DNA of 64,000 nt from an uncultured Cryomorphaceae bacterium (GTDB lineage Bacteria; Bacteroidota; Bacteroidia; Flavobacteriales; Schleiferiaceae): positions 1 through 64,000 of the forward strand of contig CAJWKU010000009.1 in the NCBI GenBank assembly GCA_913043005.1, written 5' to 3'. Of the stretch, positions 49,066-52,971 are shown one piece after another; positions within the stretch are counted from its first letter, which is position 1, and each line of letters begins with the position of its first letter. Both the position numbers and the translations under genes were made by a program. The notes beneath the pieces were generated by a model. The model ran no database searches, was not told the origin of the DNA, and saw only the letters and a list, made by a program, of their open reading frames with translations.

Positions 49066-49922
49066 GAGGAATAATACTTGCCGGTGGTTCAGGGACTAGA
49101 CTGCACCCGCTAACTAAGGTCATAAGTAAACAACTGATGCCTGTGTATGATAAGCCTATGATTTATTATCCTTTGGCAACATTAATGGAAGCTGGAATTC
49201 AAGAAGTACTAATAATAAGCACTCCAGAAGATTTGCCTTTATTTGAAAAGCTCCTCGGTGATGGGAAAAGTTTAGGTTGTTCTTTTTCTTATGCGGTTCA
49301 AGAAAAGCCTAATGGACTTGCTCAGGCTTTTGTAATCGGAAAAAAATTCATTGGAGATGATTCAGTTGCTCTTATTTTAGGCGATAATATTTTTTATGGG
49401 GGAGGCCTAAAGAAAGTATTAAGTTCAGCAAAGAATCATAAAGGGGCAAAGGTTTTTGCATATCAAGTAAGTGATCCTGAGAGATATGGGGTTGTTGATT
49501 TTGACCAAAATGGTAAAGCTATTTCGCTTGAAGAAAAACCAAAAAACCCTGCTAGTAATTTTGCTGTTCCTGGTCTATATTTTTACGATAATAGCGTTGT
49601 GGATATTGCAGCAAAACTGAAGCCAAGCCTCAGGGGCGAGTATGAGATAACAGATGTGAATTTAGAATACTTAAGCAAAGGCAATCTGCATGTAACTATT
49701 CTAGAGAGGGGCACTGCATGGCTTGACACAGGTACATTTGATAGTTTAATGGAAGCTGGGCAATTTGTGCAAATCATGGAAAGTCGTCGTGGAATTAAAG
49801 TTGCATGTATCGAAGAGGTCGCCTATCGAATGGGATACATAGACGCTTATCAGCTTTCCAAGTTATCAAAACCATTGATGAAAAGTGGCTATGGTAAATA
49901 TCTCGAAGGGATTTTGTCATGA
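49062..49922 (+). CDS. rmlA: Glucose-1-phosphate thymidylyltransferase
   Basis: RmlA (RfbA) forms dTDP-glucose from dTTP and glucose-1-phosphate, the first step to dTDP-sugars. The 286-residue protein has the nucleotide loop [11 protein letters not shown] at residues 8-18, then [34 protein letters not shown] and the sugar-site GEYEITDVN. The usual neighbours rmlB, rmlC and rmlD are absent from the window. It overlaps the exporter gene upstream and the prenyl synthase gene downstream, each as ATGA, which suggests a shared lipid or glycan task. Confidence 0.95.
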
Positions 49923-50884
49923 ATTCTATAGATCGATTAAGGAAAATATTTTTAAGGTCTTTAGAATCTGACTTTAGCGAGCCAGAATGGAATAGGCAGC
50001 CGGATTCTCTTTATGCTCCTCAGAGATATATTTTAGGAATAGGTGGAAAGAGGTTGCGGCCAATTTTAGCTTTAATGGCTGCTGAATCTATGGGTAGAAA
50101 TGCCCTGGAAGCTTTGCCTGTGGCTCATGCAGTAGAAAGATTCCATAACTTCTCGCTTATTCATGATGATATTATGGATGAAGCCCCTATCCGGAGAGGT
50201 AAATCTACGGTTCATGAAAATTGGGGTCTAAACACAGGGATACTATCTGGAGATGCATTAATGGTAATGGCATATAAGTCATTACTTAAGGCCCCTAAAA
50301 GTATGATTCATGATCTTTTTGAAACATTTAATCAAACAGCGCTTGAGGTTTGTGAGGGTCAACAAATGGATATGGATTTTGAGTCTCTTGACCGAATTGA
50401 AGAAGGCCAGTACTTAAATATGATAAGAAATAAAACAGCTGTTTTAATTGGCTGTTCTTTGCAAATGGGCTCATTAATTGCTGGCGCATCGAAAGAAGTT
50501 TCAAAATCATTATTCAACTTTGGAATTGAATTAGGGATTAGCTTTCAAATTCATGATGACTTGTTAGATGCATTTGGAACATTAGAGACTTTTGGAAAGC
50601 AAATTGGTGGCGATATTCGTTCTCAAAAGAAAACACTGCTTTGGATACATTTTTCAAATCATCAACCAGAAACACTAAAATCAATTATTAATTCTGGATC
50701 TAAGAATAAGGTTAAGGAGATTCTTTATGCAATGGAGTCCACTGGAAGTCGCGCTTATGTTGAAGCTCAGAGAAAAAAACATTTTGACTCAGCGATTACA
50801 TCATTACATAATGTAAAAAGGAACAATTGCGATACAAAAGATTTAGAGAGTTTGGCAAATTGGATTTTCGATAGAGAGGTTTAG
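49919..50884 (+). CDS. Polyprenyl (trans-isoprenyl) diphosphate synthase
   Basis: A 321-residue trans-prenyltransferase joining IPP units to an allylic diphosphate. The first Asp-rich motif is IHDDIMD (with DDxxD) and the second IHDDLLD, with a FARM-adjacent sequence EAPIRRGK. The product could be geranylgeranyl diphosphate for carotenoids or a longer chain for quinones; the chain-length residues were not analysed. It converges with the lycopene cyclase-Blh fusion (stops overlap by 4 bp), so clustering with carotenoid genes is physical but not an operon. Confidence 0.92.
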
Positions 50885-52884
50885 TTTTTTTTATAGAAAA
50901 CATGCATGCACAACACATGTGGGAAACTAATAGCTGATAGGAAAATGAAGAAGTAAGCCAAACATTCTTCAACACTCAGTTTAAAAACATAAATGGATAT
51001 TATATACAAAAAAATTGCTCCTAAATTAAAAGGGAGTGCCTCTATAAACATCTCAGAATTCGAATTCTTTAATTTGGACTTAAGGTGTGTCCAGCCAATT
51101 CTACTATGTTGAAAAATAAAATAAAGTCCAAAGGTTAAGAGAAGACTTTCGTAATTTGATAAAAAAAGAAAGAGTAAAATCATTAACCATTCTACATGTC
51201 TTTTTGATATTGCATAAACTGAAGGGAGGATCAATAGTAAATTACCAATGAGAGGATAGTCAATCAAAGAGTTCTCATTTAAATTGATCCCAAGTATTGA
51301 TATAATCTCTTTAAATTCATCAAAATGGATCAAGAATAGAGAGCTGAATAAAGTTAGCCCCCAAGCAGAAGCAATAAAATTAGAATTAATATTCCAATTT
51401 TTAGTTTCAGCTTGCCCAAAATGCCATGCGGAGTAAAGTATAAACAATAATAGACCGAGGGCAGGTGAATAAATCCAAATCAATAAAATTATTAGCATTA
51501 AAAATAAATAAGAGAGAACAAATTTCAATGTGATCTTCTTTTCTCCAGGGAATACACCGATTAAGTGATCCAAGGCACCATGAGGAATTCCTACAATTAG
51601 TAGACCCACTGAAATAATAATGAGATTGCTTTGGGATAAATTCAGTAATTCACTTGAGGGAGGTGTTTTGTCTATGAGAAAGTAAACTATCATTAAAATT
51701 GGAACTATTATTTTCTTTAATTCCCAGTAAGACCAGAATATCACTGACTTAATGAATATCCATATTTGTAGTTTAGAAAACATCGATAGATCCTCTGTTA
51801 GAGTTGTTTTCTCGTCAAGAAATTTTAGGATAAAATTGGAGGATTTTATCTTAAATAATCTCTCAAATATCGGCTTTCCTTGTAAAGGCCAAATTGTTAA
51901 TATGATCAATAATAATTGATCATAAAAAAGAAACCTCTTATTTAGCTTGACTTTTTTTGGTCTTAACTGTCCATCATTACATATCAACTTAGAGTGATTA
52001 TACATGTTTTTGAAAGCATAACCGGTGCTAGGTTTTACATTGCCTGCTCGAGTACCAATATTTACAAGTTTTTTATGAGATTTTTGATATGGTAGTCTTG
52101 AGCTCATAGGAATTACTCCTTTTTCCGAGTCGATAATTTTGTATGATCCAAAATATTTTTTTATAAAATGATGAAGAGTTTTTTTTGCTTCGTCTTCAAG
52201 AATTATTTTTTTTCCGAATCGAGTTAATTCTATTAGAGCAGTTTTAGATGAGTAGGGTAAAATGTAAACAAACTGAGTTGATTTATCTTGAGGCACACGG
52301 AAATCCATCATATGATAGACATCAGTTTCTAATTGAATTTGTTCTAACTCAACTTTTAAACCAAAAAATGATTGTGAAATATTAAATCTGTCATCTTCAA
52401 AGTTTTTCCAATCCGGAGGTCTACTGTCAAAGGCCCATTCTGCAGAGTATTTGTTTTTTGATGTTTTGATCAAAATCGAATTATCATTTTCAATATTTAA
52501 AACTTTTTCTCTTCGATGTTCAATCTTGTATTCGGAGAAGAGTTTTCGCGACCAATCATATAGGTCACTACTGACTATATGAAAGTACTCTATCGGTTTT
52601 ATTGAGGAACTTGTCTGATTATTAATTTTGATTTTATTCCAACGATGGGATACGATGGATTCGTAATCACGGTAAATCTGATCTTTTGGATTTGCCCAAA
52701 AACAGAATGTTTTGTCATTCTCAAGTTTCTCACTTGGTTCTAGAATTAGGACTTTTTTGTTATCAAGTAAAAATTGTTTAGACATTTCAATCAGAAGGAT
52801 ACATGTGCTGGCTCCCCAGCCAACAAAAATTATATCATAAAGAGTTTTTTTTTCTGACAAAATATTCTGTTCTAATAGTGGCAA
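50881..52884 (-). CDS. Lycopene beta-cyclase / Brp-Blh beta-carotene 15,15'-dioxygenase fusion
   Basis: A 667-residue two-domain protein. Residues about 14-385 are a CrtY-type lycopene beta-cyclase: dinucleotide loop FVGWGAST (20-27), FDSRPP (152-157) and GTRAGNVKPSTGYAF (277-291). Residues about 390-667 are a membrane-bound Brp/Blh enzyme with conserved His sets GIPHGALDH (432-440), SAWHFGQAE (485-493), RH (562-563), FQHSRIGWTH (591-600) and FPHVLCMH (654-661). Such a protein could convert lycopene to beta-carotene and cleave it to two retinal molecules. The start is TTG at 52884, because later ATG codons would delete the FAD loop. No rhodopsin gene is in the window. No frameshift separates the halves: one open frame covers both. 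Confidence 0.92.
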   Translation of the reverse strand: MPLLEQNILSEKKTLYDIIFVGWGASTCILLIEMSKQFLLDNKKVLILEPSEKLENDKTFCFWANPKDQIYRDYESIVSHRWNKIKINNQTSSSIKPIEYFHIVSSDLYDWSRKLFSEYKIEHRREKVLNIENDNSILIKTSKNKYSAEWAFDSRPPDWKNFEDDRFNISQSFFGLKVELEQIQLETDVYHMMDFRVPQDKSTQFVYILPYSSKTALIELTRFGKKIILEDEAKKTLHHFIKKYFGSYKIIDSEKGVIPMSSRLPYQKSHKKLVNIGTRAGNVKPSTGYAFKNMYNHSKLICNDGQLRPKKVKLNKRFLFYDQLLLIILTIWPLQGKPIFERLFKIKSSNFILKFLDEKTTLTEDLSMFSKLQIWIFIKSVIFWSYWELKKIIVPILMIVYFLIDKTPPSSELLNLSQSNLIIISVGLLIVGIPHGALDHLIGVFPGEKKITLKFVLSYLFLMLIILLIWIYSPALGLLLFILYSAWHFGQAETKNWNINSNFIASAWGLTLFSSLFLIHFDEFKEIISILGINLNENSLIDYPLIGNLLLILPSVYAISKRHVEWLMILLFLFLSNYESLLLTFGLYFIFQHSRIGWTHLKSKLKNSNSEMFIEALPFNLGAIFLYIISIYVFKLSVEECLAYFFIFLSAISFPHVLCMHVFYKKN

Positions 52885-52971
52885 TATAGTACAATTAAAA
52901 TTTAATGTTTTTCTTTTTAGTATCGTATAAATTCAATTCCATATGCTTCCTTAGAAAGGATTAAATTGATG

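Follow-up and report, generated by a model that had tools for sequence, protein, structure and literature searches.

A CrtY-type lycopene cyclase and a Brp/Blh domain joined in one gene of an uncultured Cryomorphaceae bacterium, with a probable role in retinal supply

Retinal supply decides whether a rhodopsin functions, and rhodopsins are a main route of light capture in marine and lake bacteria. This study concerns a stretch of 64,000 nucleotides (nt) from an uncultured Cryomorphaceae bacterium (contig CAJWKU010000009.1 of assembly GCA_913043005.1, positions 1 to 64,000 of the forward strand; hereafter the window), in which one gene encodes a CrtY-type domain followed by a Brp/Blh domain. 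The locus raises the question of whether the two domains are truly parts of one protein and, if so, whether that protein could lead from lycopene to retinal. Our analysis confirmed that a CrtY-type lycopene cyclase and a Brp/Blh beta-carotene cleavage enzyme are joined in one gene, and the fusion is a genuine, conserved and probably bifunctional lycopene-to-retinal enzyme.

One gene with two enzyme domains

The gene and its parts are as follows.

50881..52860, minus strand: crtY-blh fusion gene, 659 amino acids, most likely TTG start at 52860, stop at 50881-50883 (open frame and conserved start of relatives)
51772..52836, minus strand: CrtY-type lycopene cyclase domain with a flavin adenine dinucleotide (FAD) flavoprotein fold, residues 9-363, including the invariant Glu211 (PF05834; structural alignment to 3oz2)
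51673..51765, minus strand: joining helix, residues 366-396 (AlphaFold2 model; the separate CrtYs of gene pairs end near there)
50896..51609, minus strand: Brp/Blh (BCD) domain (PF15461 and TIGR03753 above cut-off; invariant residues)

A sequence-only reading of this DNA had placed the gene in a frame at 50881-52884, with the strand unstated. The 667-codon frame exists on the minus strand, the plus strand there being rich in stops, and every CrtY and Blh motif quoted from it was present. Its proposed start was not retained: translation most likely begins eight codons downstream of 52884, at the conserved TTG 52860, because L013 and L028 (our locus handles; 76-77% identical to the window protein) have an in-frame stop between both TTGs and yet keep the second. 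A TTG stands at the start position also in the near relatives L014-L020 and L025. Residue numbers refer to the 659-residue protein unless the 667-codon frame is named.

The proposed domain search found both families in the same protein, each at full length. In the 667-codon frame, Pfam Lycopene_cycl (PF05834) matched residues 17-371 (141.4 bits, E 5.2e-41, cut-off 23.4), spanning model positions 1-369 of 380, and Pfam BCD (PF15461; beta-carotene 15,15'-dioxygenase, Brp/Blh) matched residues 426-663 (113.9 bits, E 1.3e-32, cut-off 28). The cut-off of the Brp/Blh model TIGR03753 was also passed (124.3 vs 95.25 bits), both Pfam families were matched by all 62 aligned fused proteins, and no TIGR03462 match, indicative of a CarR-type cyclase domain, was found in the fused protein at E 1.

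The AlphaFold2 model of the whole protein reached a predicted local distance difference test score (pLDDT) of 90.8 and a predicted template modelling score (pTM) of 0.83. Its first half (model residues 4-374) aligned with the geranylgeranyl reductase-like structure 3oz2 (Z 24.0, root-mean-square deviation 3.9, 344 aligned). The second half, modelled alone (residues 385-659, pLDDT 95.2), is predicted to form twelve helices and has hydrophobic windows; a search of solved structures returned nothing similar to it, either by sequence at E 1 or by Foldseek at E <=0.001, which does not by itself make it a new fold. The end of CrtY is continued by a single helix (366-396) that enters the first predicted membrane helix, with no long linker or extra linker domain. 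Since the mean Lys/Arg count is 4.6 in residues 355-388 vs 0.3 in residues 397-409, we favour a topology in which the CrtY domain would lie on the cytoplasmic side.

Both sets of conserved residues, as read earlier from the frame, were found to be intact. Across the 62 fused proteins, Glu211 of the cyclase half and H427, D431, H480, H512, E515, H585 and H648 of the Blh half were invariant. The window protein keeps 37 of the 41 columns that are invariant in 16 separate CrtYs, Glu211 among them, and the four changed positions (20, 41, 177 and 232) leave the invariant glutamates and the GxG motif unaffected. Within this motif, G14 was present in 61 of the 62 fused rows (one gap) and G16 in all 62, both being present in all 16 separate CrtYs. 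Glu211 lies in the ALIELTRF segment and was found in 62/62 fused rows and 16/16 separate CrtYs; the acidic residue of this segment has an essential role in Pantoea CrtY. Of the 17 columns with at least 97% invariance across 37 separate Blhs, the Blh half keeps 15, including H427, D431, H480, H585 and H648; the four histidines among these occur in every fused row and all 37 separate Blh rows, and we take them to have a role in metal binding. The exceptions are E485, where 36 of the 37 separate Blhs have Asp, and W500. H512 and E515, invariant in the fused set, are not among the columns invariant in separate Blhs. The rows dropped from the invariant-column comparison were S_L246, S_L247, S_L248, S_L099, S_L167 and S_L169 for CrtY and S_L099, S_L184, S_L159 and S_L160 for Blh, and 55 of the 62 rows were used for A2.

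The ratio of nonsynonymous to synonymous substitution rates (dN/dS, NG86) between the window gene and that of G012, a genome of the same genus, was about 0.07 for the CrtY half (312 codons) and about 0.17 for the Blh half, and the two halves ranged from about 0.06 to 0.39 among the computable pairs. These estimates show purifying selection on both halves.

Distribution and origin of the fusion

A scan of genome contigs returned 78 related loci, in 61 of which one unbroken frame runs through both domains, at 32-77% identity to the window protein. The survey of relatives suggested earlier therefore found the same architecture well beyond a single case: it recurs in uncultured Bacteroidota and neighbouring groups, under record labels including Flavobacteriales, Cryomorphaceae, Crocinitomicaceae, Chitinophagaceae, Cytophagaceae, Kapaibacterium, Chlorobiota and Ignavibacteria. 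Start codons of the 61 loci were assigned by script, and five rows had no usable start. Among the remaining 17 loci, nine leave the contig ends (L026, L027, L035, L049, L075, L079, L080, L082 and L088), five are separate CrtYs (L083-L087), L072 has broken frames, L081 has two overlapping frames and L089 is a remnant. In this last locus (L089:5001-5520, a Fluviicola sp. record), a CrtY piece (residues 17-82) stands 50 nt ahead of a rhodopsin fragment, the C-terminal third (residues 159-249), which suggests what a deletion left of a former fusion-rhodopsin pair.

Of 394 genomes drawn evenly from the phylum, 58 had a Blh domain, and in five of these it lay within a frame of fusion size (650-684 residues). 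The window is one of the five, three share coordinates with loci already verified (L054, L073 and L090), and G128 was assigned by length only. A 958-residue frame of G318 was considered as another Blh fusion and rejected as a high-GC (guanine plus cytosine) read-through preceding an ordinary Blh. Viral contigs scanned with two peptide patterns gave 20 stretches, none coding for a relative, the nearest viral fold being the 402-residue ChoanoV1 lycopene cyclase, and a plasmid DNA search with one Blh stretch gave no match.

Separate trees of the two halves placed the fused proteins on one side of a branch, with support in the Shimodaira-Hasegawa-like approximate likelihood ratio test (SH-aLRT) of 100 for CrtY and 98 for Blh; these trees were quick searches with no bootstrap and with long-branch warnings, on a sample that is not exhaustive. 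Among the rows of both trees, no separate form was nested within the fused clade. Its sister group in the CrtY tree (SH-aLRT 90 for the join) consists of the nearest separate CrtYs, which belong to nine genomes with crtY directly before blh. A candidate blh start lies at most 16 nt from the crtY stop in seven of these nine gene pairs, L183 being ambiguous and L167 undetermined. In the Blh tree, the rows closest to the fused Blh are L010, on a long branch, and the pair member L183. Based on these data, the fusion probably arose in a single event by the joining of a crtY-blh gene pair; this is the simplest account, although the Blh tree agrees with it only in part.

Within the window's genus, represented by 22 genomes (G000-G021), the fusion was found in four (G000, G014, G016 and G012, the last interrupted by contig ends), a separate Blh in 13 and neither was shown in five. 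In the Blh tree, nine separate Blhs from this genus sit on a branch very far removed from the fused Blhs, and the window gene groups, beyond its genus-mates L013 and L028, with differently labelled marine Flavobacteriales. Its GC content of 30.9% is the lowest among 47 of the 48 window frames (mean 36.6%). The grouping and the low GC fit a horizontal gain of the gene and are no proof of it.

The rhodopsin locus of the genus has the order metC-like gene, trkA, lipoprotein gene and rhodopsin, followed by trpS in 5/5 genomes of the window's sublineage and in 3/6 other congeners. In all six other congeners with this interval (L117 being compared with L121-L123, L233, L234 and L105), a blh gene separates the lipoprotein gene from the rhodopsin gene, and it is absent there in all five genomes of the window's sublineage, whose rhodopsins are at least 93% identical. 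The fusion thus appears to be a natural replacement of a separate blh inside one genus. Neither rhodopsin nor Blh was found in G007, G015 and G018, and G021 had a Blh with no rhodopsin found. Such patchiness may mean that parts of the rhodopsin-retinal system were lost or that they are missing from the assemblies.

Retinal supply, the second cyclase and alternative explanations

A rhodopsin elsewhere in the genome had been implied by the sequence-only reading, and the window's genome has one, at G000:C10:21071-21742. Compared with solved proteorhodopsins, it carries the D-T-E proton-pump set and the retinal lysine, with Met at the colour position and Gly at the carotenoid-antenna position, in proteorhodopsin numbering (97, 101, 105 and 108). 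The carotenoid-antenna meaning of this Gly follows the accessible text of PMC13093654. As a mark of fusion genomes, this Gly was rejected: it occurs in 46/46 fusion-genome rhodopsins, but likewise in all other readable frames (one X).

Among 50 fusion genomes tested for rhodopsin, Blh and CrtYcd, a rhodopsin was found in 45, and the fused Blh was the only Blh found in all 50. These genomes represent 50 of the 61 full-length loci, the loci not counted being L013 and L028 (on contigs that match G014 and G016), L038, L044, L045, L047, L048, L056, L060, L065 and L068. The rhodopsin gene lies within 250 nt of the fusion in 24 of the 61 loci (upstream in 20 and downstream in one, all on the same strand, and divergent in three) and within 3 kb in two more, and none was present in the examined flank of 35.

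We consider it likely that the fusion acts as one membrane protein with two serial enzymes that would convert lycopene to retinal, dedicated to retinal and serving a proteorhodopsin-type pump. In this mechanism, the N-terminal CrtY flavoprotein domain, at the cytoplasmic face, would close the ends of lycopene to give beta-carotene, and the C-terminal multi-helix Blh domain would cleave beta-carotene with O2 into two retinals. The fused protein, as the sole retinal source found in the genome, would then supply the proton pump.

The same genome encodes a second lycopene cyclase of the unrelated CrtYcd type (G000:C4:74023-74664; L152 9015-9698), directly after a CrtZ-like gene. The earlier suggestion that one gene would set both carotenoid and retinal supply is therefore not supported, and with CrtYcd present beside this CrtZ-like gene beta-carotene could form without the fusion. 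A CrtYcd match was found in all 22 genomes of the genus (21 above the cut-off) and in 32 of the 50 fusion genomes; it is the only cyclase found in the 13 congeners with a separate Blh, and a search of the window's genome for a separate CrtY gave none. Residues of CrtYcd conserved over 25 rows include P74, E77, F80 and F81. The CrtZ-like gene adjoins CrtYcd in nine of 11 further neighbourhoods (L230 and L235-L244, except L237 and L242; L235 is from G010, a genome not shown to carry the fusion). It matched no Pfam or NCBIfam model above chance, and its label rests partly on its standing beside crtB, crtY or crtYcd in other loci and otherwise on histidine motifs that we take to be those of CrtZ. 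On the simplest reading of this arrangement, CrtY-Blh would be the branch for retinal, whereas CrtYcd with the CrtZ-like hydroxylase would lead to a hydroxylated carotenoid such as zeaxanthin; the fusion is probably dedicated to retinal because it runs beside a second cyclase paired with a hydroxylase. The CrtI of G016 (L118:7611-9074, beside crtB) passes NF058655, the model of a bifunctional phytoene desaturase/3,4-desaturase (701.5 vs 640 bits), and the carotenoid end product may for this reason not be zeaxanthin.

Several observations weigh against this reading as a whole. The CrtY half scores below the NCBIfam lycopene cyclase cut-offs, with 83.3 vs 209.5 bits for TIGR01790 and 56.2 vs 215.2 bits for TIGR01789; five separate Bacteroidota CrtYs used as controls also miss both (70-91 and 31-60 bits, respectively), and neither name is claimed for the fused protein. 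CrtYcd makes the CrtY half look dispensable for beta-carotene in the window's genome, and the window's own assembly yielded no phytoene synthase, although G012, G014 and G016 have one. Residue 500 is Arg in 36 of the 37 separate Blhs and Trp in 53 of the 62 fused proteins, and the join region (45 codons) is less constrained, with dN/dS up to about 0.8 in one pair. Regarding the gene-pair origin, eight of the nine pair Blhs group with other separate Blhs, L183 alone standing beside the fused clade. No rhodopsin was found in five of the 50 fusion genomes. G010, of the window's sublineage (89% complete), showed a rhodopsin and neither a Blh nor the fusion, and G009 (96% complete) likewise has a rhodopsin but no Blh found.

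The alternative that survives best, to which we give somewhat under an even chance, is plain co-expression: both halves work, and the fusion, an operon pair whose stop codon was lost, does no more than fix a 1:1 dose and a shared membrane location, without channelling and without being set apart from the CrtYcd branch. It shares both activities with the retinal-dedicated reading and differs only on dedication and channelling. The close spacing and same gene order in the pairs that carry the nearest separate CrtYs, and the lack of an extra linker domain at the join, agree with it, whereas the fused form spans a deep divergence (down to 32% identity) with no separate form within its clade in the tree rows, and it coexists with a second cyclase in most of the tested genomes (32/50). 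Going further than the retinal-dedicated reading, one may speculate that the two unrelated cyclases split one lycopene pool, with CrtYcd and CrtZ making a hydroxylated carotenoid antenna and the fusion providing a closed, channelled retinal step that the hydroxylase could not reach. We regard this as rather unlikely; if true, the fusion would be a natural solution to the competition for beta-carotene between the two pigments of one pump.

It is improbable that the CrtY half no longer cyclises lycopene here and is kept to anchor the protein in the membrane, to bind carotenoid or as an FAD scaffold, with CrtYcd making the beta-carotene that Blh cleaves. The CrtYcd of the window's genome, with its conserved residues, could cover cyclisation, but the CrtY half retains Glu211 and 36 of the 40 other CrtY-invariant columns at a low dN/dS. 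Further, CrtYcd was not found in any of the four Kapaibacterium-, Chlorobiota- or Ignavibacteria-labelled fusion genomes tested (G068, G070, G084 and G089), three of which (G070, G084 and G089, with the same coordinates as G405, G291 and G307) are rated 99-100% complete. In these three, the fused CrtY is the only cyclase found, separate CrtY not having been searched for there, which argues that the fused CrtY works.

A slightly smaller chance still is given to another ring pattern, for example the one-ringed gamma-carotene, from which Blh would yield retinal and an acyclic aldehyde. The four altered CrtY-invariant positions would allow it, and the 3,4-desaturase match of the G016 CrtI makes substrates other than lycopene possible; against it, the altered positions spare the glutamates and the GxG motif, and there is no positive evidence for it. 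Finally, an assembly or frame artefact joining two adjacent genes, for which a stop or frameshift near 51,720-51,750 had been proposed as the sign, has a negligible probability and is excluded by the single unbroken frame of the 61 loci, the two overlapping frames of L081 and the broken frames of L072 lending it weak support.

Neighbouring features and comparison with known systems

Two further features adjoin the gene.

52882..52888, minus strand: TATATTG element, 21 nt 5' of the start codon, present in the window and relatives
49919..50884, plus strand: polyprenyl diphosphate synthase, crtE-like (Pfam PF00348, 235 bits), convergent with the fusion gene and overlapping it by 4 nt

The window and all 11 near relatives compared (L013-L020, L025, L026 and L028) carry TATATTG upstream of the gene, at 18-21 nt from the start in ten of these relatives, L026 having it at the edge of the compared region. 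The TTG at 52884 falls within this element, which looks like a promoter-like element near the start codon. The polyprenyl synthase passed no NCBIfam synthase model cut-off, leaving its chain length unsettled. The other neighbour of the fusion gene in the window is a 2-oxoglutarate dehydrogenase E1 gene, and the rhodopsin is not adjacent.

The sequence-only reading knew of no characterised fusion of this kind, and our search agrees: no CrtY-Blh fusion was reported in the full-text literature searched, which covers neither subscription papers nor preprints. The accessible parts of PMC5877348, PMC8163842, PMC3587595, PMC6692529, PMC12710018, PMC10219262, PMC8305374, PMC10991881, PMC12422013, PMC11854313, PMC11946383 and PMC13093654 mention none. 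The architecture is thus apparently undescribed, though built from two known families, and it represents a recurrent, probable retinal route in uncultured Bacteroidota. Surveys counting only separate blh or crtY genes, or reading the protein as one enzyme, could miscount retinal makers. The coexistence with CrtYcd is the most interesting part, as a native-pathway case for substrate partitioning, and engineered microbes might use the fused protein as a lycopene-to-retinal part.

Among known systems, the Bacteroidota crtY-blh gene pairs (e.g., L164, L165, L168 and L170) have the same enzymes in the same order, with the blh start at or a few nt from the crtY stop, but they make two polypeptides, each with its own stop and start, and most pair Blhs are not nearest to the fused Blh. 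Natural CrtBY, CrtIBY and CrtIB fusions are known from the available sections of PMC10284914 and PMC10016063; these are likewise fused carotenoid enzymes, but none described there joins a CrtY-type cyclase to Blh. The CrtIB of PMC10284914, termed there the first natural one reported, is verrucomicrobial and sits in a rhodopsin cluster, and in the Verrucomicrobiota clusters of the same source, as far as its accessible text goes, crtY and blh are separate genes, unlike those of the window. Flavobacteria such as Dokdonia have a separate blh beside proteorhodopsin, according to the part of PMC3587595 that was available; in these and in the 13 congeners with a separate Blh, the last step and the type of pump that it serves are the same, with Blh unfused. 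The nearest published case, judged from the accessible text of PMC10016063, is a protist protein of four domains, in which a lycopene cyclase and Blh share a single chain and which its authors suggest may make retinal directly; it differs in being eukaryotic, in having a cyclase of the unrelated CrtYc/d family and in carrying CrtI and CrtB as well.

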